In this document: positions 504 through 18,807 of the stretch, one piece after another | Numbering within the stretch: position 1 is the first letter of the stretch | Layout of the letters: every line of letters starts with the position of its first letter | Assembly (NCBI GenBank): GCA_018267965.1 | Contig: JAFDXK010000005.1 | Span: 310,001-374,000, forward strand | Length of the DNA stretch: 64,000 bases | Direction: 5' to 3' | DNA from: Bacteroidota bacterium | Lineage (GTDB): Bacteria; Bacteroidota; Bacteroidia; Chitinophagales; Chitinophagaceae | Made by a program: the position numbers and the translations under genes | The notes under the pieces: generated by a model | Databases searched by the model: none | Seen by the model: only the letters and a program-made list of their open reading frames with translations | Told to the model about the DNA's origin: nothing

Positions 504-1421
504 TTATTGCAGCCAATTACTAATATCCCAGTCTACAATAGCCTTTAATTTTTCTATATCTTCTTTAAAATATTGTCTGTTAAAGCTAATTTCTTCTTCT
601 TTTGATAGCGTATATTGTTCAGGCTTATTTTTATTAAATGCCGTTGTATAGTCAATAAGCTGTTTCGAGGGGTTATGGATTATTTCGTCTACGTTTTGAT
701 TGGGATGAAATAGCTTTCGCCAACCGCTTACCTCCTTTTTTTGCGAAACGACAACTGTATTACTTTCAGAATGAAAATTCATCGATAGCATTTCCAGTTT
801 AGGATGCCCTGATTTGAAGGGAAGTCCATTTGGCAATACCTGATCAACACCCAAAAAACCATATAATTTAATGGCCAATGATGCCTGGTCTTTTAGTATT
901 TCATTTTCGAAAGAGATAAACAGAATATTTTTTTTATCAAACCGTTGCAAATACCTCTTTATCTGAACTGAATACATTCCTCTGGAAATATACCCGAAAG
1001 GAGGTTCAATTACCTCACCTTGTTTTAATTGTTTTGCTTCATTCTCTAATACTTCAGTAAAAGGCCGACATTCCCTCATCATAGCCATATTATGCCGGTA
1101 ATGAGAGAATGCACGTTGTGCCGGGCTACGTAGAGAGATAATAAACTGAGTTTTCTCTCCCAGCGCATCAAATATTTTCTTTGCTGTATCAGGTACAAAT
1201 AAATACTCCGGACACTTTTCACCTACACGTTTCGCCGATTTGCGTCCTGCAAAAAACTTGGTCTCATATTTAACAACCCCCTCATTATACAAATGGTTAT
1301 CACAAAAAAAACGTGTTTCACGTGGCCAAGCCATGCAAATATCTTTATGTGCATTTAGGATATGCCAAATAGTGGTTGTTCCGCTTTTTTGAGCGCCTAT
1401 GCATAAAAAGTCAGGCAACAT
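504..1421 (-). CDS. PAPS-dependent sulfotransferase
   Basis: Predicted to transfer a sulfuryl group from PAPS to a hydroxyl or amine. The 305-residue protein opens with GAQKSGTTT (residues 9-17), the 5'-phosphosulfate loop, and has IISLRSPAQRAFSHY (94-108), the 3'-phosphate binding segment with its Arg and Ser, so both halves of the cofactor site are present. There is no signal peptide or membrane segment, so it is probably cytosolic. It lies 3 bases behind the glycosyltransferase at 1425-2252 in a co-directional set with two more sulfotransferases; PAPS could be supplied by the cysD/cysN/cysC genes at 10-13 kb. Family assignment is secure; the acceptor cannot be read from sequence. Confidence 0.85.
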   Translation of the reverse strand: MLPDFLCIGAQKSGTTTIWHILNAHKDICMAWPRETRFFCDNHLYNEGVVKYETKFFAGRKSAKRVGEKCPEYLFVPDTAKKIFDALGEKTQFIISLRSPAQRAFSHYRHNMAMMRECRPFTEVLENEAKQLKQGEVIEPPFGYISRGMYSVQIKRYLQRFDKKNILFISFENEILKDQASLAIKLYGFLGVDQVLPNGLPFKSGHPKLEMLSMNFHSESNTVVVSQKKEVSGWRKLFHPNQNVDEIIHNPSKQLIDYTTAFNKNKPEQYTLSKEEEISFNRQYFKEDIEKLKAIVDWDISNWLQ

Positions 1422-1424
1422 AAA

Positions 1425-2252
1425 TCAGTGACCGTTTATATAGGTGAATAATTCATTGTAATCATATTTCGGATAATCAAAGATATTCATCAGCGACAGA
1501 TGGCGATGCACTACCCTTGTTGTAATACCATGTTTATATCCATTTTTTTCAAAAGCATTACACAAGTCTTTATTACTAGCATACAATCTTGTATTATCAA
1601 TGGCCTCTGTTTTAGCTAATAACAAGCGTCCTGCGGGTCTAAACGGGTAAATAATTTCAGCAGTTTTAGGTGGGTTATTGCGCTCAGGGCTTTTGATCTT
1701 TATCAATTCAGACAGTTCTGTGTCGTCAAGCTGCGGCTCTAAATCCTTTGCTTTATCAATAGAAACGAAATCGCTTGTATCAATATATGAACCTAATAAT
1801 GAAACATCGGGGTTGCGCTCCGCTATGTCAATCATTATTGCAATCCAACAATGAGGCATTGGTTCAATAATAATATCAGTATCGCATAAGAAAAAATATT
1901 TGCCTATATTTTCCCGATAATGTTCGAATATCTTCTGCTGATTACCTCCAGCATTAGTTTCCATATAGTGAACAGCGTGAAACATTCCTCTGCGCTCAAA
2001 TCCATTAATCACTTCTTTTATTTGCGGATCAGTTGATGCGTTGTCAATCAGCACAAACTTACATGGCGATTTGGTGCTCTTATATAAACTATCTAATGTT
2101 GCCCACAAATACAAAGGGCGATTATGTGAACGTAAAAAAACATATATCTCACCCGTATCATATCTTAGAGGAGCAGGAAAATTACCACTATAAAACAGCG
2201 ACCTCACTCTATTTGAAAAGCGTCTAGCAGTATTCTTAATATATCTATACAT
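1425..2252 (-). CDS. Family 2-like glycosyltransferase
   Basis: A 275-residue protein with a GT-A fold pattern: IYVFLRSHNRP near residues 36-46, FVLIDNASTD near 66-75 (the classic GT2 nucleotide-binding stretch), and FLCDTDIII near 121-129, where DTD (124-126) is the metal-binding motif. The first 25 residues are basic but are not a clear signal peptide. Its ATG overlaps the stop of the upstream sulfotransferase gene by one base, suggesting translational coupling. The donor and acceptor are unknown. In this setting it may decorate the same product as the sulfotransferases. Superfamily is likely; precise activity is not known. Confidence 0.7.
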   Translation of the reverse strand: MYRYIKNTARRFSNRVRSLFYSGNFPAPLRYDTGEIYVFLRSHNRPLYLWATLDSLYKSTKSPCKFVLIDNASTDPQIKEVINGFERRGMFHAVHYMETNAGGNQQKIFEHYRENIGKYFFLCDTDIIIEPMPHCWIAIMIDIAERNPDVSLLGSYIDTSDFVSIDKAKDLEPQLDDTELSELIKIKSPERNNPPKTAEIIYPFRPAGRLLLAKTEAIDNTRLYASNKDLCNAFEKNGYKHGITTRVVHRHLSLMNIFDYPKYDYNELFTYINGH

Positions 2253-3091
2253 TAAAACAGAAGTCTATCGTTTTGTATATAATAATTGAGATGAGGTATT
2301 TTCTTAGTTTCCGCTTCAATTTGCATTATCTGCTCTTGTGTAAAACCAGCCTGATAACGAGACAAGTTTGGAGATTGGTAAACAATAGACTTACATGCAT
2401 TAATATATTCAGGCAGCTTCTCAAGCTCAAGGAAAGAAATAATATTTTCAATAGTATTTTCTGCCTCTCCGATTAGTTCTTCGTTGTATATATGTAATAC
2501 ACCTGACGGTTGGAGTTTGTCAATAATTTTCTGAGCTTGTTTTTCTATAGAAAAATACCGTTGTATATTATCATCTGCATTTAAATCATTTCTCCTGGTA
2601 CGAGTAGCTATTACGTCAAATGGATTTCTTACACAACGCATAACTTTGATAGGTAGCGGTATTAAATCCTTCAATTCATCAATGAGATGAGGGTGTAAAC
2701 TAAACTCATGTACGGTACCGGCAGAGCGCTTATCACCTATAACATTAATTCTATTTTTTTTACCGGAACCATTTATCCTGTATGAATAATCTGTCCAAAC
2801 TGGGTTTGCAGTAAAGTTTTGAGAATTTAAACAAATGTTCTTTTTTATCTTATTCCAATCAGCCCCTGCCTTCATCAGACGGACAACATGCAGTTCATTT
2901 GCTATAACGGCATTAGGATGAGCATCGATAATACTTCTTACAAGCGTAGTACCACTTCGCGGATTACCAAGGAAAAGAACAAAAGTTTTTAATTGCGAAA
3001 AATCTACAGACGACCAATTAGAAACATACGTCAAATGCTGTTTCAAATTAGACAAGCGTTGCCTTATACTAATATATGTGCCTTCAGCCAT
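2252..3091 (-). CDS. PAPS-dependent sulfotransferase
   Basis: Second sulfotransferase of the set, about 279 residues. The sequence FVLFLGNPRSGTTLVRSIIDAH near residues 37-58 contains the PAPS 5'-phosphosulfate loop (GNPRSGTT); VMRCVRNPFDVIATR is the 3'-phosphate segment. I chose the ATG at 3091; a GTG two codons upstream (3097) is also in frame. The protein is divergent from the sulfotransferases on either side, so these look like three different enzymes, not recent duplicates, and they may have different acceptors. It overlaps the next gene by one base and lies 32 bases behind the oxygenase at 3124-3909. Family call is secure, substrate unknown. Confidence 0.82.
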   Translation of the reverse strand: MAEGTYISIRQRLSNLKQHLTYVSNWSSVDFSQLKTFVLFLGNPRSGTTLVRSIIDAHPNAVIANELHVVRLMKAGADWNKIKKNICLNSQNFTANPVWTDYSYRINGSGKKNRINVIGDKRSAGTVHEFSLHPHLIDELKDLIPLPIKVMRCVRNPFDVIATRTRRNDLNADDNIQRYFSIEKQAQKIIDKLQPSGVLHIYNEELIGEAENTIENIISFLELEKLPEYINACKSIVYQSPNLSRYQAGFTQEQIMQIEAETKKIPHLNYYIQNDRLLF

Positions 3092-3123
3092 TATCACTCA
3101 AACTTAATATTTTAAAAAGATTT

Positions 3124-3909
3124 TCACCCTGGTGTTTTCCCGAATAATCCTCGTAATCTTTCAGCAACCCTTTGTCGCATCGAGGCATTTACAATACTTC
3201 TCCATTTGGTATCTACTGTGAGTTTGTCTATATTTTCTGGCGCAGTATAATAATATAGCGCTATCGATCTCCTGCTCATTTCGGGTGGACAATTAACAGG
3301 CTCTGGCTGCCCATGAAACGATGTGTCATCTGTATTGAAGATAACACAGCGATTATATACTGGCGAAATACTGATTTGCTTTTGCTTCATTTTCCTATCC
3401 CACAATTCGAGGTTTCCCCCATATTCAGGCTTCCAGTCTTTATTCAGAAAAATAAGCATATTGACCCGGCGTGCTAATCCTGTCTTTTTATGCAAGGTAA
3501 AATCGGCATGTACATCTAATCTGCCATTTCTTTCTGTTTGATGTAATCCGCCACCTTCATAATAAGGATCTGGGATTAATCCATTGATACCAGTTACATC
3601 TTCTAAAAATTCAAGTACTGGCGCAGTATTAAGCAGGGAAATATAATAGCTACATGGGTTAGCTTGAAGCAGATGAGGCCTGTACCCGCTTTTCAAATAT
3701 TGAGTGTTGCTTTTATGATTTACGGTAGCTTCGTCTTTTGACGGAAAATGTTGAATGATTTTATCGATAAAAAATTCAGGAAGAAAATTATCAATTACTA
3801 TATGCGGGTAAGGTAATGCTTTACTGTAGTTCTCGTTAAATGCACGAACAAGTTCTTTATCAACCTTATCTATAGATAAAATACTATTATCCTTACTAAT
3901 ATGTAACAT
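3124..3909 (-). CDS. 2-oxoglutarate/Fe(II)-dependent oxygenase (prolyl 4-hydroxylase-like)
   Basis: Likely hydroxylates a protein, peptide or small molecule using 2-oxoglutarate and oxygen. The 261-residue protein has DVHADF with the metal pair His134 and Asp136, a distal His199 in TSFHGQP, and Arg213/Arg214 (SRRSIALYYY) placed to bind 2-oxoglutarate: the full HxD...H...R arrangement. GGNLELWDR around 164-172 is typical of the prolyl-4-hydroxylase-like double-stranded beta-helix group. It sits between a sulfotransferase and a radical SAM gene. A hydroxylated residue would give a new attachment point for a sulfotransferase or glycosyltransferase, but this order of steps is inference. Family call is good. 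Confidence 0.78.
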   Translation of the reverse strand: MLHISKDNSILSIDKVDKELVRAFNENYSKALPYPHIVIDNFLPEFFIDKIIQHFPSKDEATVNHKSNTQYLKSGYRPHLLQANPCSYYISLLNTAPVLEFLEDVTGINGLIPDPYYEGGGLHQTERNGRLDVHADFTLHKKTGLARRVNMLIFLNKDWKPEYGGNLELWDRKMKQKQISISPVYNRCVIFNTDDTSFHGQPEPVNCPPEMSRRSIALYYYTAPENIDKLTVDTKWRSIVNASMRQRVAERLRGLFGKTPG

Positions 3910-3924
3910 AGACAGCAGTTGTAA

Positions 3925-4770
3925 TTATGTAATGTTCATTGATTTCCAAATGCTTTTTAGCTTCTTACCCAGCTTATTTTTATTTTCAAACCAACTTGCA
4001 TCAGCTAATTCGGGCATGGGGCAGTTTTTGCATGCTTCATATCTTTCTCTGAGCCCTAATTGCAAATCTTTGACTATGCCAATATGTTTCTCAGAATACC
4101 AAATATCTTGTATGGGTTGATGAAAAGCATTACCTAAATCAAACATATCGGTCATATCCTCACAACAAAGGGCTACATTACCATCGTAGTGAATAATCAT
4201 TCTGAACAGTGGCCTTATACAGGCAGCATTCTCATAAGAATGCTTAGCTCTAAACATTCTTTCATCCTCCGGTGTAGAGGTTCTCGGAAACACAACTCCC
4301 CCCAGGCTAAAATGCACTTCAGTGCCTTGCAATGCATCTTGCCAAAATGCGATCTCATCGTTTAGCTCATCTTCATTTTTATAATCGTACAAGCCTACTT
4401 TTATATACTCAAAAACCCTTGCTGCTTCTTTACATAGTTCTTTATTATTTCTTAGTACATCACCATTGGTATGCTCATACGGTCTTAGTCCTCTTCTCCT
4501 TGCCTCATGAGCCATATCGATTATACGGTTATCCAAAAACGGTTCACTCATATGATGAAACGCGACTCTTCCTTTAAAACCCATTGCAACTGCCTCATCC
4601 ATAATACGCAATACGTTTTCCGTTGGCATTTGCTTTATTATCTTTTTACCGTTACTATCCAACCTTTTGCCCGATGTATCGAAAGTGCGGTTACAGAAAA
4701 AACACTCTCGATTACAATTGGATTGTAATTCAATCAGTAGTCTTTGGAATAATGGTATTTTTTGCCTCAT
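3925..4770 (-). CDS. Radical SAM protein with SPASM-like C-terminus
   Basis: The N-terminus has SNCNRECFFCNR, giving the CxxxCxxC ligands of a radical SAM [4Fe-4S] cluster at roughly residues 19-26. The C-terminal third has further cysteines (AACIRPLF, NVALCCED, YEACKNCPMPE) in the spacing of a SPASM or twitch auxiliary-cluster domain, preceded by LGNAFHQPIQDIWYSE, a stretch usual in SPASM proteins. I chose the ATG at 4770; a TTG at 4776 is in frame. SPASM enzymes often modify peptides but also act on sugars and small molecules. Its place 13 bases downstream of a sulfotransferase and close to the RiPP precursor makes peptide modification plausible, not proven. No leader-binding domain is recognisable at its N-terminus. 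Confidence 0.8.
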   Translation of the reverse strand: MRQKIPLFQRLLIELQSNCNRECFFCNRTFDTSGKRLDSNGKKIIKQMPTENVLRIMDEAVAMGFKGRVAFHHMSEPFLDNRIIDMAHEARRRGLRPYEHTNGDVLRNNKELCKEAARVFEYIKVGLYDYKNEDELNDEIAFWQDALQGTEVHFSLGGVVFPRTSTPEDERMFRAKHSYENAACIRPLFRMIIHYDGNVALCCEDMTDMFDLGNAFHQPIQDIWYSEKHIGIVKDLQLGLRERYEACKNCPMPELADASWFENKNKLGKKLKSIWKSMNIT

Positions 4771-4783
4771 GGTCAATCCTCAA

Positions 4784-5491
4784 TTAATTATAGCCATATT
4801 GGTTTGCTAATAAATACTTATAAAGATATTCACAATTTTCAGGTATATCGTCAATAGAATATTTATGATGTTGCAATTTCTTAGAAATAAAAAGCCTAAG
4901 CTTCCATTTTTTAGGATTTAGCCCGAAATATGATGCTATATGTTGAATATCATTGATATACTTATCCTTTTCAGAAAGATCAAAATGCACAATAGGGAAA
5001 GGCTTTTTTTTGTGAGATTCAACCAGAATATCATTATATTTTATCCATAAATCCAAACCTTCTGAAATCGGGATACCGTTTCTCTCGAACAGTGATTGAG
5101 CTACAGCCATAGGATGCCTGAATGTCCCAACTAATTGAAATCGTTCGCCAGTAATTTTTTGCCAATAATCAAGCAGCAATAATACCCGTGGATCTTTCAC
5201 ACCGCAATATTCCTTTTTCGACAACTCTTTTACAATCTCTTCTATTTGTCCTCCATAGATTCCAACATCATACACAGGCTTAGGATTGTCCCAACTAGCC
5301 TCATTTAACTCCAATATCTTATCATGCAGTTGTTGTAATTCTCTTATTTCAAAATACCCCTTTTTATTATATACACCTGTTCGTCTCACATCACCCAAGT
5401 ATAACCCCGAAGACTCTAATGCACCCGCCAGGCAGCTAGTGCCACTCCTGTGCATCCCTAGTATGAGTAAAAAAAGGCTTGGATTACGCAT
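4784..5491 (-). CDS. PAPS-dependent sulfotransferase
   Basis: Third sulfotransferase of the locus, about 235 residues, shorter than the others. LILGMHRSGTSCLAGAL near the N-terminus is the PAPS 5'-phosphosulfate loop, and LVGTFRHPMAVAQSLFERN is the 3'-phosphate region. I chose the ATG at 5491 over the in-frame TTG at 5497. It overlaps the 3' end of the asparagine-synthetase-like gene by 8 bases, so the two are very likely translated together; this is the sulfotransferase most tightly tied to the candidate RiPP cyclase. The core peptide has no tyrosine, so a peptide target would have to be serine or a residue hydroxylated first. Confidence 0.82.
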   Translation of the reverse strand: MRNPSLFLLILGMHRSGTSCLAGALESSGLYLGDVRRTGVYNKKGYFEIRELQQLHDKILELNEASWDNPKPVYDVGIYGGQIEEIVKELSKKEYCGVKDPRVLLLLDYWQKITGERFQLVGTFRHPMAVAQSLFERNGIPISEGLDLWIKYNDILVESHKKKPFPIVHFDLSEKDKYINDIQHIASYFGLNPKKWKLRLFISKKLQHHKYSIDDIPENCEYLYKYLLANQYGYN

Positions 5492-7325
5492 GCTCAAGTT
5501 TTAAAAAGAATACGCCTAACGCCAACGCGCGTTGTACAGCTGAACCTTTTGCAAATAATGACTCATCATAACCTATTGGATAACTCAAAATTTGTTTATA
5601 AAACAGCTCTATGGTATCCAAGTCAAGCCAGTATGATCCTAAGGGTGACTTTCGAAACTTCTTTAATAATATTTGTATTTCATTAGCTTCTTTTATCATT
5701 TTAACTACCAAATCAGCCCCTTGCACGCCTCTTTTTTTAGCGAATACTATACTATCAGGCATTTTGCCTTTCATAGCACGCCTGATAAGCCATTTTGTAT
5801 GACCACCTCTTATATATTGTTCATTCGGAATACCCAAACAAAAATCTATAAGTCTTTTATCCATAACAGGGGTCCGCACATCTATCCCATAAGCATTTGC
5901 CAATGTATCAACCTCGCCCATAGCACAAGATTGAAACGCATTAATAAGGTTACAATATGGATATTTTAAGTTTCTTCTTTTTTGCTCAAGTTCAGGAGTA
6001 AAGCCCTGATAATTACTCAACGCATTTTGTATTGCAGCAGAATTAAGATAACTCCTTACAGAGTCTTTCTTATCCGGAGATGGCCGACTATACTTAAACA
6101 CGGGCTTGTAAAGTGTCTTTACCAAAAGGCCTTTCCATGAAATATGCTGGTGCTCTTTCCAACTTAAAACCTCTCGTATGTAAGCTATAGGGTTCGTAAA
6201 AAGCAAATCTCTGAAATGCTTATTGATATCGCCAGCATAAGAAACGGTTGTATTTCCCCAAAAACCAGTCAACATAACTTCAATATCTTGCTTACTAGCC
6301 TCTTCGAAAATTTCATTGATGTGGACATAGGGCACTGATGGTTGTTGAAAAATCTCCTGGTTTTTCAGTATTGTACTTACAATATTCTGTTCTTTTGAAT
6401 ACACAATATGCCAATTAGTAGCAGGCATAGTGCTAACTAAGTCTTTTACTAATGGGGTTTCATCAATAACACGCCCCTCAAGCAAACCAGGCTTATCTAC
6501 CAAATCAGTTTTCCAGGTAAAAGCTTCCAAATTTCTATTCTCCGAAGCAAGGGTTGGTGCTGCCAATACTGCAGTAGAACCGGAATCGAAACCACTGCTT
6601 AGTGCAATACCCGTTTTTTGTTTTCCGATTCTACAATTAACTGCTTCAGCATATATTTCTAGGAAATGATTCACATAATCCTCATCGTTGGTATACCTTA
6701 CAGGTTTGAAATTTTCCGGCAGCCAGTAATTATCTATCCTTAAATTCCCGTCCTTCGCCGTTAATGTATGCGCACTTGGCAATTGGAAAATACCTTTATA
6801 AAAGGTCTGGGCATCTCGCTTGAACCCCGCACTTAACTGAACAATTGCATTTTCATTTAGTACTTTAGGTACTTCAGGGTTAGATAAAACCTCCTTTATA
6901 TCAGTAGAAAAGACTAAGAATTCATTATTGTGATAATAATATATCGAGCTATGCCCATAGTGATCTCTGGCAAGGAATAATTCTTTTTCACCACTATCAT
7001 AAATGGCAAAAGCCCAATCGCCAATCAACCGTTTAACACAATCTTTGCCCCACGCTTTATAGCACCTCAATATTAGTTGATTTGGGGAAAGCAGGCTAGT
7101 CTCTTTAAACGGGACGCTCAATAAATCAGACAACTCTTTTCTGTTATCTATCCTTGCACATGAAACTACAATCAGCGAATTGACATCATCTTTCAACACA
7201 TCACTCGCCTTAGTATACGTTGATACTACACCAAACTCTGCATTATCAAGTACTTGGCTATAATAACGGTAGTTATGCGGGGTTGCTATCGGCTTACCAT
7301 GATACGTATATATACCATTAAACAT
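5484..7325 (-). CDS. Asparagine-synthetase-like protein, candidate lasso (macrolactam) cyclase
   Basis: A 613-residue AsnB-like protein. The N-terminal half resembles the Ntn glutaminase domain, but it begins MFNGIY, so residue 2 is Phe where glutamine-hydrolysing AsnB has its catalytic Cys; it cannot make ammonia from glutamine in the usual way. The C-terminal synthetase domain keeps the pyrophosphate loop (ALSSGFDSG, near 241-249) and the VRTPVMDKRLIDF and KWLIRRAMKG segments. Loss of Cys2 with a kept ATP site is typical of lasso peptide cyclases and beta-lactam synthetase. The 47-residue lasso-like precursor lies 80 bases upstream on the same strand. Alternative: an AsnB-like protein of polysaccharide loci. 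Confidence 0.75.
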   Translation of the reverse strand: MFNGIYTYHGKPIATPHNYRYYSQVLDNAEFGVVSTYTKASDVLKDDVNSLIVVSCARIDNRKELSDLLSVPFKETSLLSPNQLILRCYKAWGKDCVKRLIGDWAFAIYDSGEKELFLARDHYGHSSIYYYHNNEFLVFSTDIKEVLSNPEVPKVLNENAIVQLSAGFKRDAQTFYKGIFQLPSAHTLTAKDGNLRIDNYWLPENFKPVRYTNDEDYVNHFLEIYAEAVNCRIGKQKTGIALSSGFDSGSTAVLAAPTLASENRNLEAFTWKTDLVDKPGLLEGRVIDETPLVKDLVSTMPATNWHIVYSKEQNIVSTILKNQEIFQQPSVPYVHINEIFEEASKQDIEVMLTGFWGNTTVSYAGDINKHFRDLLFTNPIAYIREVLSWKEHQHISWKGLLVKTLYKPVFKYSRPSPDKKDSVRSYLNSAAIQNALSNYQGFTPELEQKRRNLKYPYCNLINAFQSCAMGEVDTLANAYGIDVRTPVMDKRLIDFCLGIPNEQYIRGGHTKWLIRRAMKGKMPDSIVFAKKRGVQGADLVVKMIKEANEIQILLKKFRKSPLGSYWLDLDTIELFYKQILSYPIGYDESLFAKGSAVQRALALGVFFLKLEHA

Positions 7326-7405
7326 AATCGGGTAATGTACGTTTGGACATCGCCTTTAAAAAATTGCTTTTAAACAAAGCATTAATAAAAAATATTTTGC
7401 ATAGT

Positions 7406-7549
7406 CTATGAAGACCCTCTATCAACCCTATTATTTGAGCGTACACCTATTTGTGTAAGTTCTTTCACGGTTCCAAGTTTGGTTAATTTAGGCGTTACGT
7501 ACTTTTTTTTAGCAGAATCCGCCGACTTGGGGGTAACTGGTTTGTTCAT
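7406..7549 (-). CDS. Putative lasso-type RiPP precursor peptide (47 aa)
   Basis: A small gene of 47 codons, first on the leftward transcript. The N-terminal part is Lys/Ser rich (MNKPVTPKSADSAKKK), followed by YVTPKLTKLGTVKELT. This fits the lasso-leader pattern YxxPxLxxxGxxxxLT, where Tyr and Pro bind the RiPP recognition element. After it come QI and the stretch GVRSNNRVDRGSS. If cleavage is before Gly, Gly1 to Asp9 would make a nine-residue macrolactam ring with the tail RGSS. Caveats: Thr is then at -3, not the usual -2, and a four-residue tail is short. An in-frame ATG nine bases upstream (7558) is an alternative start. The core has three Arg, matching the nearby PRMT-like enzyme, and ends in two Ser. 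Confidence 0.7.
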   Translation of the reverse strand: MNKPVTPKSADSAKKKYVTPKLTKLGTVKELTQIGVRSNNRVDRGSS

Positions 7550-7578
7550 GTGCAACATTATTATCAGGATAATGAAAT

Positions 7579-7586
7579 CAAATCTA
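7579..7586 (-). promoter_or_regulatory. Bacteroidota -7 promoter element of the precursor/cyclase transcript
   Basis: On the minus strand the sequence is TAGATTTG, an exact match to TAnnTTTG. It lies 29 bases upstream of the precursor ATG at 7549 and 20 upstream of the alternative ATG at 7558. A clear -33 TTG at the usual spacing is not seen, so the call rests on the -7 match and position. Confidence 0.5.
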
Positions 7587-7757
7587 AAAATAATCTTTTT
7601 AATATTGTAGCGTCAGCATGAAATAATTTTAAAAACCAGTCAGATTAAAATCTTTTAGTTGCAACTGACATCCAAAACAAACTAAAATTTTGAACCTTGA
7701 GATAAATGTTAATCAGGTGATAATTAACCCATATATCAGAAAACACAACTTTAGCTG

Positions 7758-8951
7758 ATGCAAATTACTAAACAAACAATATTACGTAGAAACCACAGAG
7801 TACTTATACGCATACAGGCCGCCCATGCTGTCTTAATTGTTGTAGATGGAATGGAGCAATCATTCCCCAATCATGCATTAACTATTTTAGATGTTTTTAC
7901 CCACCCGCAAACATTTGAAGAAGGGCTAAAAAAAATCAACACTTCCGGGGCAAGGAATTGGATTGAATTGACAACAACAATTCAACAGCTATGGACCTTT
8001 GGAGCATTAATCGGTGATAAACAGCAATCATTTGCCGATAAGCAATGGCGAAGTTTCGGCGCTTCCCATATTCACATAAAAATGCTGAATGACTATGTCC
8101 GTACAACATTTTTCATAGACACGTTAGATCAAATAACAGGTTCTGAGGACGTGGTATTGGATATTGGCACAGGAACAGGTGTATTAGCAATAGCAGCAGC
8201 CAGGGCAGGTGCCAAAAAAGTATACGCAATTGAAGCTGGCACAATGGCTGACATAGCTGAAAAAATCATAAAGAACACAGAAGTAGCAGACAAGATAGAG
8301 GTAATAAGAGGTTGGTCAACTGATATTACCCTACCTGAAAAAGCAGATATACTGGTAAGTGAAATTATAGGTGATGACCCTTTTGGTGAAATGATTCTGC
8401 CAACATTTATTGATGCCCGTGCCCGATTATTAAAGCCATCAGCGAAAATAATACCCGGGTATATGAAGGTTTTTCTTTTACCAGTACAAATGCCCGAATC
8501 AACAATACAGAACCGTATAGTTCAAACAATTCAATTAGATAAGTGGAAAAAATGGTACAATATTGATTTTTCGATGTTGAATGACCTAAAAGTAGATTAC
8601 TCAGAGAATTTTATTACAGCTAATCGTGACCAGGCTCAACAATTTGAGATTAAAGGTGAGCCAATATTGATTGCCGACATCGATTTCTCTCAACAAGCCA
8701 GCACTAACTTACACCAGCAACTCAATTTGTCAACAGAAAGTGTTTTCAATTCTTTTCTGATGTATTTTGAAATACATTCTGGTACTTATAAACTTAGTAC
8801 ACACCCTACCACGTCCAGCACATCCAACCATTGGCGCAACCCGGTATGGTATTCCCCGGAGGCGGAGAAACTTAAGATTGGAGACGCCTATTCTCTTAGT
8901 TATGACTATACTGAATCCAAAGGCTCTATATTAACTATTAACAGGCTTTAA
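7758..8951 (+). CDS. PRMT-like arginine N-methyltransferase with N-terminal RRE-like region
   Basis: A 397-residue SAM-dependent methyltransferase with the signatures of protein arginine methyltransferases: HIKMLNDYVRTTFF (about 106-119, like the PRMT H..ML.D.VRT helix), SAM motif I VLDIGTGTG (133-141), the double-E loop SEIIGDDPFGE with Glu202 and Glu211 nine residues apart as in PRMT1, and NHW (357-359) at the THW-loop position. PRMT-like enzymes are uncommon in bacteria. Residues 1-95 are extra and look like a small winged-helix PqqD/RRE-type fold (LTILDVFTHPQTFEEGL, then WIELTTTIQQLWTFGAL). This suggests binding of the RiPP leader and methylation of core arginines. It is first in a rightward operon and divergent from the precursor. 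Confidence 0.75.
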   Translation: MQITKQTILRRNHRVLIRIQAAHAVLIVVDGMEQSFPNHALTILDVFTHPQTFEEGLKKINTSGARNWIELTTTIQQLWTFGALIGDKQQSFADKQWRSFGASHIHIKMLNDYVRTTFFIDTLDQITGSEDVVLDIGTGTGVLAIAAARAGAKKVYAIEAGTMADIAEKIIKNTEVADKIEVIRGWSTDITLPEKADILVSEIIGDDPFGEMILPTFIDARARLLKPSAKIIPGYMKVFLLPVQMPESTIQNRIVQTIQLDKWKKWYNIDFSMLNDLKVDYSENFITANRDQAQQFEIKGEPILIADIDFSQQASTNLHQQLNLSTESVFNSFLMYFEIHSGTYKLSTHPTTSSTSNHWRNPVWYSPEAEKLKIGDAYSLSYDYTESKGSILTINRL

Positions 8952-8987
8952 GCTGCATACTTCAGGCTAATATCTGCTTCTTTTCAT

Positions 8988-10184
8988 ATGTTACCAATAA
9001 GTACAATATCAAAAAAATATGGTGATGAGCAAGCATTATTGGTGCTACTATGTCGTGTATTTATTGGTAAAGCCAATTCAGAGGATATCAATTCATTTAT
9101 CAGCGACCATCAGCTCAATTGGGACATCGTATTATCAGGCATACAACAGCATAAAATAGGTGCGATTGCGTATAATACACTAAGCAATACTATCGCTGAC
9201 AAAACATTCATACATCAACTTAAAACCGAAACTGCTATACGGGCTGTATATGGTTCTGAACAAGAAAAAGAAATCCTTAGGATTTATGACTTAATCAGAA
9301 AAAAGGGTATTGCCATTCTACCATACAAAGGGCCCACTTTTGCCACGCAATATTATGGCAGCGCATCTTTAAGACAATCCACTGATATTGATTTCCTGAT
9401 GCCACGAGAAAGCCTTGAAGACTTAGAAAATATCATTGATATACTTAGAGCAGATGGATATACCCCTATGTATGATATACCATTGGGTTACCGCAAATTG
9501 CTATTTCAAAATACCTGCGAATTTTATTTTGATAAATACAGAAATGAAATCCGCACACAGCATGTAGAATTTCACTGGCTGGCACACCACCCTGTTTTTG
9601 ACTTACCTGTCAATATCCCTAACAGTATGTTGTTCAACAACACGCAAAGAATAGAATTAGCAAGCAGAGAGATTGAAGTATTGGGTGCAGAAAACACTCT
9701 GTTAACCTTACTGTTGCATCATGGGATTAAAGAAAACTGGGCGTCGTTAAGGCATATTCTTGACTTTGCTATGGTAATAAAGAATGGCAATATAAGATGG
9801 GGTGACCTTTACGATACATCCAGAAAATACAATATTGAAAACGCCTTAAATGTTGGGTTAACGTTGGTTGAAGAACTACTGGGTGTAGAAACGGCACAAA
9901 TAATATCTAAAAAAGTGACTACCACTCGATTTATAGACAATATTCTTAATAAGAAACAAAAAAAATCCCTGGCATATCATCAGTGGCAAAAAATAAAACT
10001 ACTGGATAATAATAGAGCTCGAATAAAATTGATTAAAAAGCAAGTGAAATATGTCTTTACACCATCCATATTGGATAATAAATTCATTTCTTTGCCTGAA
10101 CGTTTTCATTTTTTGTACATTTTTGTCAAAGTCATCCGTAGGAGTTTGACCGTATTCAGCAGAAAAACGACACCTAATGTTTGA
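8988..10184 (+). CDS. NTP_transf_5 family nucleotidyltransferase-like protein
   Basis: A 398-residue protein of the NTP_transf_5 (PF14907-type) group. LPYKGPTFATQYYGSASLRQ followed by STDIDFLMPRE (about 111-141) gives the KG and the Asp pair (D133, D135) of the nucleotidyltransferase active site, and LLTLLLHHGIKENWASLRHILDFAMV is the conserved C-terminal helical block. Family members recur in lasso peptide clusters, where some sit with kinases that phosphorylate the C-terminal Ser; the proposed core here also ends in Ser. The gene follows the methyltransferase by 36 bases and overlaps the APS kinase gene by 8 bases. Family call is good; chemistry and substrate are unknown. Confidence 0.72.
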   Translation: MLPISTISKKYGDEQALLVLLCRVFIGKANSEDINSFISDHQLNWDIVLSGIQQHKIGAIAYNTLSNTIADKTFIHQLKTETAIRAVYGSEQEKEILRIYDLIRKKGIAILPYKGPTFATQYYGSASLRQSTDIDFLMPRESLEDLENIIDILRADGYTPMYDIPLGYRKLLFQNTCEFYFDKYRNEIRTQHVEFHWLAHHPVFDLPVNIPNSMLFNNTQRIELASREIEVLGAENTLLTLLLHHGIKENWASLRHILDFAMVIKNGNIRWGDLYDTSRKYNIENALNVGLTLVEELLGVETAQIISKKVTTTRFIDNILNKKQKKSLAYHQWQKIKLLDNNRARIKLIKKQVKYVFTPSILDNKFISLPERFHFLYIFVKVIRRSLTVFSRKTTPNV

Positions 10185-11064
10185 CCTTTTTATAAAAAAA
10201 CTTAAGAAAGACCCCACCATTAAAAGGCATGTATTAAAATCAATATCATGGCGCTTTATTGGTTCGATAGATACAGTTATACTCGGGTGGATTATCAGTG
10301 GTCAAATTGGTATGGGTTTAAAAATTGGCGGGCTGGAATTATTTACGAAACTTCTATTCTACTTCATACATGAAAGAATTTGGCAAAAGATCAGGTTCGG
10401 AAAGCTATCAAAGTCTGCAAAAGCCGATAATGTAAGACGAGAAGTAGCTCCTAATCTTTTTGCCTATGCTACAAATATTACGAAATCAGATAGGGAAAAA
10501 CTAAATAACCATAAAGCATTTACTATTTGGCTTACAGGTTTACCTGCTTCCGGAAAATCATCAATTGCAAAGGAATTAGAAACACAATTACACCAAAGAG
10601 AATACAGATCTTATTGCCTGGATGGTGACAACACACGACTTGGCATTAATAGTGATTTAAGCTTCTCGGATGAAGACAGGAAGGAAAATATTCGCAGAGT
10701 AGCTGAGATATGCAAACTATTTAATGACTCGGGAATTATTATTATTGCCTCATTTATCTCACCATTTGAGCTTGATAGACTGAATGCAAAAAAGATAATA
10801 GGCTCAGAAAATTTTATCGAAGTCTTTGTCGATGCAAATGTCGAAACATGTAAACAGCGTGACAAAAAAGGTCTCTATAAGCTTGCAGCACAGGGTAAGC
10901 TAAAAAACTTCACAGGAGTTAACAGCCCATACGAACGTCCTGCTTCTCCTGATATTCACCTTAGGAGTGATTCAATGAATATAGAGATGTGTGTTAATCA
11001 AATTATCAATACTTTATCAGAACGAAAATTGTTAGTCTATACTAAAGCCATGCAATTATCATAA
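10177..11064 (+). CDS. cysC: DUF2061-adenylylsulfate kinase fusion
   Basis: APS kinase phosphorylates adenylylsulfate to PAPS, the sulfuryl donor. In this 295-residue protein residues 15-75 form a DUF2061 segment (SISWRFIGSIDTVILGWIISG ... LFTKLLFYFIHERIWQKI) with hydrophobic membrane stretches, and from about 113 there is an APS kinase domain: P-loop GLPASGKSS (121-129), DGDNTRLGINSDLSFSDEDRKENIRR and ISPF. The fusion would anchor PAPS synthesis at the inner membrane. It overlaps the nucleotidyltransferase gene by 8 bases and converges with cysN 10 bases away. Together with cysN and cysD it makes a full PAPS supply for the three sulfotransferases. Kinase call is secure. Confidence 0.88.
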   Translation: MFDLFIKKLKKDPTIKRHVLKSISWRFIGSIDTVILGWIISGQIGMGLKIGGLELFTKLLFYFIHERIWQKIRFGKLSKSAKADNVRREVAPNLFAYATNITKSDREKLNNHKAFTIWLTGLPASGKSSIAKELETQLHQREYRSYCLDGDNTRLGINSDLSFSDEDRKENIRRVAEICKLFNDSGIIIIASFISPFELDRLNAKKIIGSENFIEVFVDANVETCKQRDKKGLYKLAAQGKLKNFTGVNSPYERPASPDIHLRSDSMNIEMCVNQIINTLSERKLLVYTKAMQLS

Positions 11065-11074
11065 CCCTTTGATG

Positions 11075-12289
11075 TTAAATAATGGTAAATACTCCGGAAG
11101 TGTAGTACGTTTCAGCATCAATTATTATACCTCTCCCCATTTCATGAATGTCCAAATGGCTATCAAATACAAAATCAGCTTCAATAGCAATTCTAACTTT
11201 TGCAAACTCATTGACTGAAATGCAATCACCACTAACACTATCTTCAAATGTATTGGGATTTACTTTTGCTATTATTTTGGTAACTGTTCCATATAGTTCC
11301 ATCGCATTAAGTCTGAAAATGTATTTTTTGCCGATAACAAGGCTTGCTGTTCCATCTAACCAACAAAGGTTTGCTAAACACGCATTATTAATACTTGGTG
11401 TATTATTAGTTAAGGAAATTATATTTCCTCTATTTGCTGAAACTTGCCTGTCAAAAAACATATTGACCTTGTCTTTGTGAATAGCCTCGGAAACTTCGTT
11501 AAAGCCATTTACGATCCTGTCAATTTTTGCGTTCATGCCATCAGGCCAAATCATCACCTCATCACCTTTTTTAACTCTACCGTTTAATACATTAGCAGAA
11601 TAGAACGCTATATCCTTCTGTTTACTATTTACGTATTGTATACTTATCCTTAAAGCATCCGAATTTGCACTGCCATTCAATGCGCAGTTTTCAAGGTATT
11701 CTAAAAGGGTGTAACCATCATACCATTCCATTTTCTCAGACCTACCACACACGTTATCTCCATAAAGTGCACTAATTGGAATGAATTGAATATTCTCAAA
11801 GCCTAGTTTTTCAGACAATTCTGTATACTCACTTCTAATACTTTCAAACACGGTTTGATCATATGCAGCCATATCCATTTTGTTAACAGCAACAACAACA
11901 TGCTTAATACCTAAAAAAGACGCAACCAAGGTATGTATACGCGTTTGAGATGTTATGCCTTGTAATGCATCAAGCAGTATAATCATTAAATCGACGTTAG
12001 ATGCACCTGTAACTAAGTTTCTGACATATTCAAAGTGTCCTGGTGCATCTGCTACAATATATTTTCTTTTAAGAGTATTAAAATACTTATACCCTATATC
12101 AATAGTAATGCCGTCACTTCTTTCACTACGCAAACCGTCTGTAATATGAGCCAGATTTAAACCATCTTTACTGTCAACAGTTTCCAGCACATCTGTCTTT
12201 ATATTACCGGTATCATGTAACAACCTTCCGATAAGTGTGCTTTTGCCGTCATCCACACTACCCGCTGTTGTAAATTTTAAAATTTCCAT
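11075..12289 (-). CDS. cysN: Sulfate adenylyltransferase subunit 1 (GTPase)
   Basis: Regulatory GTPase subunit of ATP sulfurylase, which with CysD forms APS from sulfate and ATP. The 404-residue protein has the translation-factor-like GTPase motifs: GSVDDGKST (10-18), DAPGH (G3), NKMD (G4) and SAL (G5), followed by the beta-barrel domains of the EF-Tu-like C-terminus. There is no fused APS kinase domain, which fits the separate DUF2061-CysC gene that converges on it. It lies 10 bases downstream of cysD. No PAPS reductase or sulfite reductase gene is seen in the window, so I infer that APS is made here for sulfonation. Confidence 0.92.
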   Translation of the reverse strand: MEILKFTTAGSVDDGKSTLIGRLLHDTGNIKTDVLETVDSKDGLNLAHITDGLRSERSDGITIDIGYKYFNTLKRKYIVADAPGHFEYVRNLVTGASNVDLMIILLDALQGITSQTRIHTLVASFLGIKHVVVAVNKMDMAAYDQTVFESIRSEYTELSEKLGFENIQFIPISALYGDNVCGRSEKMEWYDGYTLLEYLENCALNGSANSDALRISIQYVNSKQKDIAFYSANVLNGRVKKGDEVMIWPDGMNAKIDRIVNGFNEVSEAIHKDKVNMFFDRQVSANRGNIISLTNNTPSINNACLANLCWLDGTASLVIGKKYIFRLNAMELYGTVTKIIAKVNPNTFEDSVSGDCISVNEFAKVRIAIEADFVFDSHLDIHEMGRGIIIDAETYYTSGVFTII

Positions 12290-12299
12290 CCTGGCATTC

Positions 12300-13193
12300 T
12301 TAAAAATATCCGTTTAACTTTCTGTCCTCCATTGCGGCGTCCGAAATTTTGTCATCAATTCGCGTAGCCCCTCTTTCACTAATTACACTATGTTGTATTT
12401 CCTCTATCACATCGTCTATTGTTTGTGCAACAGACTCAATTGCAGCAGTACACGTCATATCACCTACTGTTCTATATCGCACCATTTTATTTACAACAGT
12501 ATCGTTCTCATCAATATGTATAAATTCAGATAACGCTATCAGTCGACTATTATATTCAAGACAATCCCTATTGTGCGCAAAATACAAGGATGGTAGTTCG
12601 ATATTTTCCCGCTTAATGTAATTCCACACATCTAATTCAGTCCAATTACTTATCGGAAAAACACGCATATTTTCTCCCTTATGAAGTTTGCCATTATAGA
12701 TATCCCATAATTCAGGTCGTTGATTATAAGGTTGCCATTTACCATCAGCACTTCGAACAGAAAATATTCTTTCTTTAGCTCTAGCTTTGTCTTCATCGCG
12801 TCTGCCACCGCCAATACAAGCATCTAGTTCAAATTCGTTTATCGTATCAAGCAAGGTAGAAGATTGTATCACGTTCCTGCTGGGCAGTTTTTCTTCTTTT
12901 TCCTTTATACCGTACTTCAGTATTGTATCTTCTACTTTTCTAACAATTAATTCGAGTTTATATCGCTCAACAAGTTGGTCCCGAAAGCTCAGTGCTTCAT
13001 CAAAATTGTGACCGGTATCTATATGCAAAACCCGAAAAGGTATATCGCCCGGATAAAATGCCTTAGCTGCTAAATGGATAAGTACTGTAGAATCTTTACC
13101 CCCGGAAAACAATAATACAGGGTTTTTAAACTGAGCAGCAACTTCCCGTAAAATGAAAATAGCTTCAGACTCCAATGTATCAAGATAACCCAT
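12300..13193 (-). CDS. cysD: Sulfate adenylyltransferase subunit 2
   Basis: Catalytic subunit of the CysDN ATP sulfurylase (sulfate + ATP to APS + PPi), cytosolic. The 297-residue length is normal. LLFSGGKDSTVLIHLAAKAF near residues 28-47 holds the SGGKDS pyrophosphate loop of the PP-loop ATPase family; DTGHNFDEALSFRD, GGRRDEDKARAKERIFS and FPISNWTELDVWNYI are CysD signatures. It is the first gene of the cysD-cysN pair, reading leftward, and is divergent from the macroglobulin gene across 228 bases. I do not see a recognisable regulatory site in that gap. Identification is secure. Confidence 0.95.
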   Translation of the reverse strand: MGYLDTLESEAIFILREVAAQFKNPVLLFSGGKDSTVLIHLAAKAFYPGDIPFRVLHIDTGHNFDEALSFRDQLVERYKLELIVRKVEDTILKYGIKEKEEKLPSRNVIQSSTLLDTINEFELDACIGGGRRDEDKARAKERIFSVRSADGKWQPYNQRPELWDIYNGKLHKGENMRVFPISNWTELDVWNYIKRENIELPSLYFAHNRDCLEYNSRLIALSEFIHIDENDTVVNKMVRYRTVGDMTCTAAIESVAQTIDDVIEEIQHSVISERGATRIDDKISDAAMEDRKLNGYF

Positions 13194-13421: not shown

Positions 13422-16400
13422 ATGAAACCTAAAATGTGGCAATTCGGCTTTATGCTCGGTTGCTTTTTTTTGTCTGCATGCTTGAGCGGAAACAAACTCA
13501 AGGTTACTAAAAATTTCAATGACGAAATTGAATTGCAACAAAACCTTGTGTTTTCATTCAACAAAGATATTTATCCCGACAGCCTGTTGCAGCTATGGGA
13601 TAGCACTGCCTACCTGGAATTTACGCCTAAAATTAAAGGGTCTTTCAAATGGAACAGCTCAAGCGAACTGATGTTCTCTCCTTCTGAACCTTTTTCACCA
13701 GAGACAGAGTACAAAGCTGTTATGAGCAACAAAGTACTAAAACGTAGCAAGCGCAAATACCAACTGGATATTGCGGACTTTGCTTTTCACACAGCACCAT
13801 TGCGTGTAAACAGCGCTAACCTGCAATGGACTCGTGGACAAAGCATAGCCAATGTAATGGTTCAGCTTGACCTGATGTTTAATTACAAAGTAAACGTAGC
13901 AGATGCTGCAGCCAAAATCAAACTCAGCTCCGGCGGTAACAGCATTATGACCACTACTTTAAACGAAGGTTCAGGGTATACAGTATCCCTGCAGTTTGCA
14001 CCTTTAAATGAATTAGACCAGGAAACTCCTCTAAAAATTGAAGTAGCAACAGGAATAAACTTAATAGAATCTTCAAAGGCTTCTAAAAAAGACACCACGA
14101 TAAGCACAAGCATACCTTCAAGATATAATTTAGAGGTAACAGGTATTAACTCTCAACATACCGGCACAGAAGGTATTATAACTGTAAATACATCTCAGCC
14201 GATTGACGGAGATAACCTGAAAAGCCTTATTCAAATAGAGCCTGCAATTGCTTTTGACATTACCCCTAGCGATGAAGGATTTATCATCAGCAGTAAAGCA
14301 TTCAGTGCAACACAAACTTATTCCCTAACTGTATCGAAGAAAATGGAAGGCAGCTTTGGCGGCAAAATGAAAGCTGATTATACTAGCCCAATCACTTTCG
14401 GGCAGTTAGACCCAGCCATACACTTCTCTAACGGAAAAGGCATGTACCTATCATCGCAAGGGTTTAAAAACCTATCTCTGAGCATTGTAAGCGTACCGCA
14501 AATAGAAGTTAACGTTGTAAAAATATATGAGAACAATATTGAAGCATTTTTCAGAAGTGGGAAAGACTATGATTACGGTTATGACGAAGATGATAACTAC
14601 AATAGCTACGAATATTTCAAGACTGACAACTTAGGCGATACTGTTTTTAGCAAAGTATATGAAACTTCAAAACTGCCAAAGCAAAATGCAGCCAGCATAT
14701 TACACCTTGATTTCAAGGATAAAATAAAAGGATATGATGGTATTTATGTATTGACGGTAGCGTCTAAAGACCATCGCTGGATACAGGATACTAAAGTTAT
14801 CTCCATTTCCGATATTGGTTTGATCGTAAAAGAAGAAAGGGACAATATTTATGTGTTTGCCAATTCCATCAGGACTGCACAAGCTATTTCGGGAGCTAAG
14901 GTATCTTTCATAAGCACGAATAATCAGAAATTATATACTGCCACCACAGATAATGAAGGCGTAGCTGTATTTAATAATATCAGTAGCCATTCGCCCGGTT
15001 TTAGAGTAGGATTAGTTACCGCAAGCATGAATGATGAATTTAATTTCATTAGCCTTGAAAAGAATGGTGTTGAAACATCACGTTTCGATGTAGGTGGCAG
15101 AGTACCAAACGCTACAGGGCTTAACGCCATGATATATGCAGAGCGTAACCTTTACAGACCGGGAGAAACAGTTAATATCAGTACAATTATCCGCAACGAA
15201 CAATGGGGTAATCCGGGCGAGATACCTGTAAAACTGAAACTAATAATGCCTAATGGTAAAGAGTTTGCCACATCCAGAAAAATCCTGAATGAAGAAGGCT
15301 CCTGCGAAGCGTCATATAATCTACCCTTTACTGCCACGACAGGCACTTATGTATTGCAGGTATATACCGGGAATGATGTACTTCTTAATGCGTATAATGT
15401 CAGTGTGGAAGATTTTATGCCCGACAGAATTAAGGCACAGCTTAAAATCAACAAACCCGATTATAAAGACGGAGACAGCATACAGACTACCATACAAGCC
15501 GATAATTTGTTTGGCACACCTGCTGCCGGAAGGAATTATGAATGTCAGTTAAATATGGACAAGGAAAGCTTCAGCCCTAAAAACTATGCTGACTATTCGT
15601 TCGATGTAAAAAATGACTTCAACTTCAAAACTGATTTCAAACAAGGCAAGACCAATGAAAAAGGTAGTGCAAATGAAGGTTTTCAATTGCCTGCAGAAAT
15701 CAAAAACATCGGTGTGCTAAAAGGCAACATCATGCTTACGGTATTCGATGAAACGGGCCGCCCAGTACACAGGTATGAACATTTCAATGTCTATACACAA
15801 CCCATATTCATAGGCATGAAACAAACAGAAGATTATGTTTCTACGCGCAGACCGTTGCGTATACCAATTGTTGCTGTTGATAAAAACGGAACACCTCAAA
15901 ACAATACCGTGGTTCATGTTTCGTACATCAAACATGAATGGAATACTGTCATTCAGGAAGAAAGCGGACATTACAGGTATGTATCACAACGCGAGGAAAA
16001 GGTTATAAGACAAGAAAACTTGCGTATCAATGGTGCTTCTAACGTATTGAGTTTTGTGCCTGAGTTGGGTGGTGAATACGAAATTCGGGTTTCTGTAAAT
16101 GGTTCTAATAGTTACATTTCTCAAACTTTCTATGCATGGGGGTGGGGTGACAACCAATATTCATCATTCGAAGTGAATAACGAAGGTAACGTAACCATCA
16201 AGCCTGATAAAGAGAAATACAATATAGGCGACGACATGAATATATTGCTCACTACTCCATTTGAAGGCAGGATGCTGGTAACAGTAGAGCGTGATAAAGT
16301 ATTGAGGCATTATTATGTATCAACTCAAAACAAATCAGCATCTATAACGTTGAAAGCTGATGATGTTTGCGTACCCAATGTATACATCACCGCTACGCTT

Positions 16401-18806: not shown

Positions 18807-18807
18807 C

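Follow-up and report, generated by a model that had tools for sequence, protein, structure and literature searches.

PRMTs, which methylate arginine residues of proteins, are familiar mainly from eukaryotes. What, then, does a PRMT-type gene do in a bacterial locus that appears to make a modified peptide? To approach this question, we analysed a 64,000-nucleotide stretch of a Bacteroidota contig (the window, which starts at contig position 310,001), with the gene at 7758–8951 on the forward strand as its centre of interest. A preliminary description of this gene, made from the sequence alone, had pictured an RRE-like region fused to an arginine methyltransferase in a RiPP locus.

The reading frame runs from an ATG at 7758 to a stop at 8951 (+) and encodes 397 amino acids, including an extra N-terminal domain; the protein is labelled P0001 here and in the tree and profile comparisons. 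A phmmer search of PDB sequences matched it to CARM1 over residues 88–279 (1e-26) and to PRMT1 over residues 94–376 (1.1e-24), and the Pfam match to PRMT_C lies above its cut-off (2.1e-8). Motif I reads VVLDIGTGTG, the double-E loop (8361–8390, +) reads SEIIGDDPFGE with Glu202 and Glu211 spaced by nine, and NHW stands at the place of the THW loop (residues 357–359; 8826–8834, +). Motif I, the Glu spacing and NHW were recovered as given in the preliminary description. An AlphaFold model built with 31 PRMT rows was confident from about residue 100 onwards, apart from residues 250–280 or so, and a Foldseek search with it returned PRMT7, CARM1, PRMT3 and PRMT1 structures at probability 1.00, with PRMT6 also among the top matches. 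By sequence and predicted fold, the product of 7758–8951 belongs to the PRMT family (class I, PRMT1/CARM1 type).

Other assignments of P0001 were considered and set aside. The best Pfam E-value was that of PrmA, the ribosomal protein L11 methyltransferase (4.3e-14), with a match confined to profile positions 148–257 of 296, and the NCBIfam PrmA models reached 41.8 bits at best against a cut-off of 188. This reading was dropped because the methyltransferase core alone matches and the barrel is PRMT_C. A PADLOC match to mad2 (residues 129–231, 2.1e-12) was taken as the common SAM fold, and a search against PHROGs gave no match.

The genes around 7758–8951 identify the locus as a lasso-peptide biosynthetic cluster. 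On the reverse strand, 7406–7558 encodes a 50-residue lasso precursor A whose leader ends in ...YVTPKLTKLGTVKELTQ and is followed by IGVRSNNRVDRGSS; it scores 24 bits with NF033521 (cut-off 19) and 29.5 bits with NF033528 (lasso_cyano), under the cut-off of 33. The adjacent asparagine-synthetase-like frame of 613 residues (5484–7325, −) is the cyclase C, with glutaminase and Asn-synthase domains (Asn_synthase 1.7e-24) and a match to NF033535 (3.4e-82) whose 277 bits are under the cut-off of 525. A nucleotidyltransferase of the NTP_transf_5 family follows the PRMT gene (8988–10184, +; PF14907 5.2e-38). Immediately outside the left edge of the window, a separate RRE gene, B1 (PqqD 2.7e-13), precedes the protease gene B2 at about 308.2 kb, which gives the single Transglut_core3 match in the source genome (3e-13); after B2 come an HPrK-like kinase gene, under curated cut-offs, and a weak glycosyltransferase match. 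The precursor shows YxxPxL, has Thr before the core and is accompanied by B1, B2 and C; the window frames and the genes just left of it together supply A, B1, B2, C, the kinase-like gene and the nucleotidyltransferase. The RiPP locus of the preliminary description can therefore be named as that of a lasso peptide.

Further genes flank this core. On the reverse strand lie a weakly matched sulfotransferase-like frame (4784–5497; Sulfotransfer_3 E 0.2), a radical SAM/SPASM protein (3925–4776; SPASM 2.4e-11, Radical_SAM 5.6e-7), a 2OG-Fe(II) oxygenase (3124–3909; PF13640 1.5e-17), a sulfotransferase (2252–3097; Sulfotransfer_3 5.4e-12), a family 2 glycosyltransferase (1425–2252; 4e-7) and another sulfotransferase (504–1421; Sulfotransfer_1 4.2e-14). 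On the other side are a CysC-like APS kinase with DUF2061 (10177–11064, +; PF01583 3e-61), a CysN-like GTPase (11075–12289, −; GTP_EFTU 1.2e-39) and a CysD-like protein (12300–13193, −; PAPS_reduct 4.3e-45), the CysN and CysD labels being our own. With ABC-exporter queries taken from the loci L133 and L155, neither the window nor locus L032 gave a homologue.

Several features of the cluster are recorded as observations in their own right. By the Thr(−2) rule, the sole acidic residue of the core falls at position 10, beyond the reported rings of 7–9 residues; it falls at position 9 if Gly is residue 1. Either cleavage of the leader is shifted by one residue, to between TQI and G, and Asp9 closes the ring, or the peptide forms a ten-residue ring. 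The company of sulfotransferase and CysC/CysN/CysD-like genes (504–5497 and 10177–13193) raises the question of sulphated lasso peptides; CysC/N/D homologues were also found in the same-genus lasso clusters L133, L134 and L135, and a sulfotransferase in both clusters checked for it, L133 and L134. Two of these clusters each carry two tandem HPrK-like genes (L133:8751–10638 and L135:9999–11844) and two similar lasso precursors with GGGITDIIENGFYHT-like cores (L133:12764–13321 and L135:7352–7845). To the right of the window's cluster, 13422–21123 holds an ordinary pair, a bacterial alpha-2-macroglobulin followed by a transglycosylase/transpeptidase with BiPBP_C, which we take to be penicillin-binding protein 1C-like.

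The closest homologue of P0001 comes from another phylum. The PRMT of locus L155 is 38% identical over 377 columns, aligned from residue 15, and is the sole full-length homologue found, N-terminal domain included. In a tree of PRMT domains, the two form a clade with support of 100/99. At the THW loop P0001 has NHW, with H and W kept, versus CSW in L155. The genes of L155 run in one direction in the order B1, B2, C, precursor, HPrK-like, PRMT and ABC transporter, with B1 cut by the contig end, and the precursor scores 18.6 bits against the lasso-leader cut-off of 19. Since L155 has both parts, the N-terminal domain and the PRMT have moved jointly within lasso clusters that belong to two phyla. 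Homologues that are common without a precursor-like small gene would have refuted the preliminary description; this is not what was seen for the P0001/L155 subtype, of which two members were found, as L155 sits in a lasso cluster with such a gene.

Searches for further copies were made in genomes, plasmids and viral contigs. None was found in the order (17 genomes) and class (23 genomes) of the L155 genome or in the class of the L162 genome (29 genomes). P0001 matched seven plasmid records, all of them with coverage below 80%, and viral contigs yielded no locus. With the L155 PRMT as query, one of 14 matching plasmid records was covered to 80% (Tropicibacter, 31%), and this protein did not match the N-terminal-domain profile. 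No annotated lasso genes lie near the Tropicibacter and Azospirillum plasmid PRMTs in PLSDB, whose annotation is incomplete.

We then considered how often PRMT and lasso genes occur together. Among 294 genomes drawn from the window's family, its own included, there was no other match of PRMT strength, the best other (8e-10) lying in a frame of 7,021 amino acids. Within the phylum (395 genomes, own included), three others carry a PRMT at 1e-12, none of which matches the N-terminal domain. A PRMT is absent from the same-genus lasso clusters L133, L134, L135 and L137; the fifth such locus, L136, is a 4-kb contig. A second sample comprised 395 genomes of the Proteobacteria, the phylum of locus L086, with the L086 genome as its centre. 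A PRMT (E up to 1e-10) was present in nine of them. When the centre is excluded, five of the eight PRMTs sit in lasso clusters (L155, L157, L158, L159 and L162), each of which encodes homologues of LasC and HPrK and an RRE. The locus itself holds B2 in L155, L158 and L162; for L157 and L159, B2 is elsewhere in the genome, on a separate contig. NTP_transf_5 is found in L157, L159 and L162. As for the remaining three, L156 and L161 are outside such clusters and L160 is on a contig of 3.1 kb.

The strength of this association was assessed with B2. A B2-like gene, defined as E 1e-9 in a frame of less than 300 amino acids with limits set after the table was seen, occurred in five of the eight PRMT genomes versus 25 of 384 genomes (expected overlap 0.52, P 4e-5, centre left out). 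It was present in 26 genomes of the 385-genome draw from this phylum, which overlaps with the 395-genome draw and is perhaps not identical to it. PRMT and lasso genes co-occur well above chance.

Scanning genome contigs with an alignment of three PRMT rows yielded 169 stretches and 108 relatives, from which 80 loci were kept, seven of them spanning less than 10 kb. In four of these loci (L053, L073, L086 and L095), the PRMT has RRE, kinase-like and NTP_transf_5 genes in its neighbourhood, and L086 additionally carries C, B1 and B2. None of six RiPP marker families was found in the other 76 at E 0.01 with home-made profiles. As these profiles were built from two to four sequences that include L086, L095 and L053 themselves, the matches of these three loci are partly circular; their markers are independently supported by phmmer, NCBIfam and a single-query check, with a weak kinase label in L053 (0.011). 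In this set, bacterial PRMTs of other subtypes mostly lie away from RiPP genes.

In the tree of 35 PRMT domains, with ten rows labelled as belonging to a lasso or RRE locus, the best topology required six label changes. L162 groups with L086 at 99/96, and L157–L159 group at only 85/60. Because nine of the 32 inner branches are weak, about three recruitments are taken as safe; the tree suggests several separate recruitments of PRMTs to lasso or RRE loci, with six as a point estimate.

Two of the loci outside lasso clusters deserve a description of their own. L073:6447–16718 is RiPP-like and encodes two RREs, two radical SAM proteins, a ScmC-like kinase (under cut-off), NTP_transf_5 and a PRMT, together with an ABC transporter-like frame, labelled by eye, and a small Cys/Gly-rich protein with RGG and CR.G motifs (10933–11205, −). 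It resembles the SynChlorMet cassette. In L095, a small frame at 5629–5931 adjoins RRE, NTP_transf_5, HprK_rel_A-like and PRMT genes and contains a weak stretch resembling a twin-arginine signal (TIGR01409, 15.7 bits, cut-off 16.7); it is a possible non-lasso precursor.

Next, we analysed the N-terminal domain of P0001, a putative RRE of about residues 1–96 (7758–8045, +) with a homologous part in L155. The preliminary description had noted some 95 extra residues with a winged-helix-like pattern. The extra residues, about 90–100, are real and conserved in L155 (E 8.4e-8 for the N-terminal part alone), and "winged-helix-like" still describes a pattern only. The domain has no match in Pfam or NCBIfam, in plasmids or in 384 other genomes of the window's phylum, and none under E 0.04 among PDB sequences, where the best, at 0.042, is a ubiquitin-conjugating enzyme. 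The RRE reading failed the sequence tests: the domain scored 2.3 bits against RRE profiles built first from 15 and later from 19 sequences, a score that 60 shuffles out of 2000 and 33 out of 1000 equalled, and hhalign alignments of the P0001/L155 domain pair with RREs spanned 57 and 54 columns in the helical half (P 0.0055 and 0.0071) at probabilities of 6.6 and 5.5%.

Structure prediction gave two pictures of this domain. The winged helix of RREs has three strands followed by three helices. Residues 7–97 predicted alone gave strand-strand-strand-helix-helix-strand-helix, an order similar to that of RREs plus one strand, at a low-confidence mean pLDDT of 57. When modelled with the 31 PRMT rows, the same domain was helical, with almost all of residues 1–69 at pLDDT below 50. 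A fold search with the lone-domain model returned nothing under E 0.58; its noise included entries from RRE-bearing systems, 5why at rank 20 and TbiB1 (5v1u) at rank 40 (E 2.6). The comparison with RRE folds thus yielded one RRE-like and one helical model, both of low confidence, and no significant fold match.

The P0001/L155 domain profile matches no other PRMT fetched, including those of the lasso clusters L157, L158, L159, L162 and L086, which means that PRMTs operate in lasso clusters without this domain. Two PRMTs of RiPP loci have a PqqD-like tail at their C-terminus instead, with scores under curated cut-offs: L053 (Pfam 0.0041, TIGR03859 2.6e-5) and the lasso PRMT L158 (Pfam 0.0012, TIGR03859 3.2e-4). 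L157 and L159 have a tail of similar appearance that gives no score. From sequence and models, an RRE nature of the P0001 domain is possible rather than demonstrated, and we put the chance that it binds a leader a little below one half.

Does the peptide offer arginine to the enzyme, as would be needed for the leader-guided methylation of Arg3, Arg7 or Arg10 that the preliminary description put forward as a hypothesis? By the Thr(−2) rule the window core is IGVRSNNRVDRGSS, with three Arg, and the predicted L155 core is SGSGLLSDATLRKRS, with two. Among nine other lasso cores, that of L159 has one Arg, and Arg is lacking in L086, L157, L158, L162, L133, L134, L135 and L137. The probability that both P0001-type cores contain Arg by chance is 0.055, a figure that concerns two loci. 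Precursors outside the window were called here from leader motif and position; those of L155, L157, L158, L159 and L162 all stay below the NCBIfam lasso cut-off, L162 having no match at all.

The double-E loop is intact in P0001, L155, L086 and L162 and lost in the lasso PRMTs L157 (D/A), L158 (D/N) and L159 (D/A). Of the 91 PRMTs aligned, 86 have both Glu. RiPP-locus copies make up four of the five that differ; the alignment reads L095 as E/W and L067 as E/D. The RiPP-locus copies L157, L158, L159 and L095, which lack one or both Glu, are perhaps a set with a new target. A general rule that an intact double-E goes with a core Arg was tried on all seven PRMT lasso clusters and rejected, as L086, L162 and L159 contradict it. 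Since this wider correlation fails, we claim the link for the P0001/L155 pair only. Lasso-cluster PRMTs need not methylate Arg, because the L086 and L162 cores are Arg-free and L157–L159 lack the loop; on these sequences they look like a family whose target can change. For the P0001/L155 subtype, Arg is the most probable target.

Taken together, the gene at 7758–8951 very probably encodes a lasso tailoring enzyme and, given that role, Arg is its probable target. The full reading, a lasso tailoring methyltransferase that probably N-methylates core Arg, is the one we favour by a modest degree over its negation. In the proposed pathway, B1 would bind the precursor's leader, perhaps together with the N-terminal domain of the PRMT, which would probably help the precursor to dock, either itself, as an RRE-like domain, or via the separate B1. 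The PRMT domain would use SAM to place one or two methyls on guanidine nitrogens of Arg while the precursor (core ...GVRSNNRVDRGSS) is still linear and the cyclase has yet to close and thread the ring. The C-terminal Ser would probably be phosphorylated by the kinase and then probably glycosylated by the nucleotidyltransferase; B2 would remove the leader and C would close the ring. Methylation before folding is proposed because other lasso tailoring enzymes (StspM, ThcoK, SyanK, CanE and MslH) are reported to act in this way (PMC8498205). Similarly, a helper role of B1 is proposed because BsfB1 is reported to accelerate phosphorylation by BsfK (PMC10368454).

The enzyme could instead methylate another atom of the peptide, such as the C-terminal carboxylate, a Ser or Asn side chain or an added phosphate or sugar. 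Predicted cores without Arg stand beside PRMTs with the double-E intact (L086, L162) and lost (L157, L158), and C-terminal methylation is a known lasso tailoring step (PMC8498205); but in P0001 and L155 both Glu are retained and the accompanying cores contain Arg, and we regard this alternative as unlikely. Methylation of core Arg by a lasso tailoring enzyme also has to be weighed against an enzyme that stands in the cluster by chance. SznE acts on free Arg. A small-molecule arginine methyltransferase of this kind, or a PRMT that serves a different cell protein, would fit with the 76 of 80 bacterial PRMT loci that have no RiPP markers and with a Pantoea PRMT relative that adjoins an iron-containing redox enzyme and a Rieske protein; SznE itself is the arginine methyltransferase of the streptozotocin pathway (PMC12637814). 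However, no redox partner of that sort was seen among the scanned window genes (504–13193), the full-length homologue is found in a lasso cluster of another phylum, and the co-occurrence with lasso genes exceeds chance, which together make a chance placement quite improbable.

A further question, compatible with Arg methylation by a lasso tailoring enzyme, is whether the N-terminal domain serves dimerisation or is an unrelated winged-helix domain, with B1 recognising the leader. The cluster has a separate B1, RRE profiles fail to recognise the domain and other lasso PRMTs function without it, and the help that BsfB1 gives to BsfK (PMC10368454) points the same way. On the other side, the lone-domain model, at low confidence, has an order resembling that of RREs, and PqqD-like tails (TIGR03859, under cut-off) occur in the RiPP-locus PRMTs L053 and L158. 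We consider the two sides evenly balanced.

Our broader proposal is that PRMTs N-methylate lasso Arg and were drafted several times by bacteria, both into lasso pathways and into related RRE/nucleotidyltransferase pathways, with a fused leader-docking domain that escapes RRE models in the P0001 subtype and a PqqD-like tail in others, and that some copies lost the loop and were retargeted; this is tentative, and somewhat more prone to be wrong than right. The pairing of PRMT and lasso genes is no one-off, and its recurrence in other bacteria points to a putative kind of peptide decoration. If true, a recurrent PRMT in lasso clusters would be a new tailoring step for lasso peptides, and peptide engineering would gain an arginine methyltransferase that is guided by a leader. 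These PRMT-fold enzymes, some of which keep the double-E while others lack it, stand beside substrates of known sequence and would also form a natural set for probing the substrate logic of the fold. Among the matches listed from open-licence literature, no description of a PRMT in a RiPP pathway was found, an absence that is weak given this scope. The lasso tailoring steps in the part of PMC8498205 consulted comprise C-terminal methylation, phosphorylation, glycosylation, deimination, acetylation, hydroxylation and D-amino acids, and a PRMT is not named there.

Compared with known enzymes, P0001 shares with the type I PRMTs (PRMT1, CARM1/PRMT4, PRMT3 and PRMT8) the catalytic domain, beta-barrel, motif I, double-E and a THW-like loop, at about 19–26% identity in the Foldseek alignments among the matches listed. 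Unlike them, it is bacterial, has a different N-terminal domain, belongs to a lasso cluster and carries NHW for THW. The bacterial SznE-type enzymes of streptozotocin and saskemycin are arginine methyltransferases like the family of P0001, but work in small-molecule pathways (PMC12637814). The window's cluster resembles those of paeninodin, pseudomycoidin and Bradymonas bsf in having A, B1, B2, C, a kinase-like gene and a nucleotidyltransferase (PMC8498205 and PMC10368454), a nucleotidyltransferase being reported from phosphoglycosylated lasso clusters (PMC8498205). Beyond these clusters, it has the PRMT, sulfotransferases with PAPS genes, a radical SAM protein and a 2OG oxygenase, and no ABC exporter homologue was seen. 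Among the lasso tailoring enzymes covered by PMC8498205, the citrulassin peptidylarginine deiminase is also directed at Arg, but performs deimination and is encoded outside the cluster. StspM and the lassomycin O-methyltransferase are, like P0001, SAM-dependent tailoring enzymes of lasso clusters; they act on the C-terminal carboxylate, whereas P0001 is of the PRMT family.
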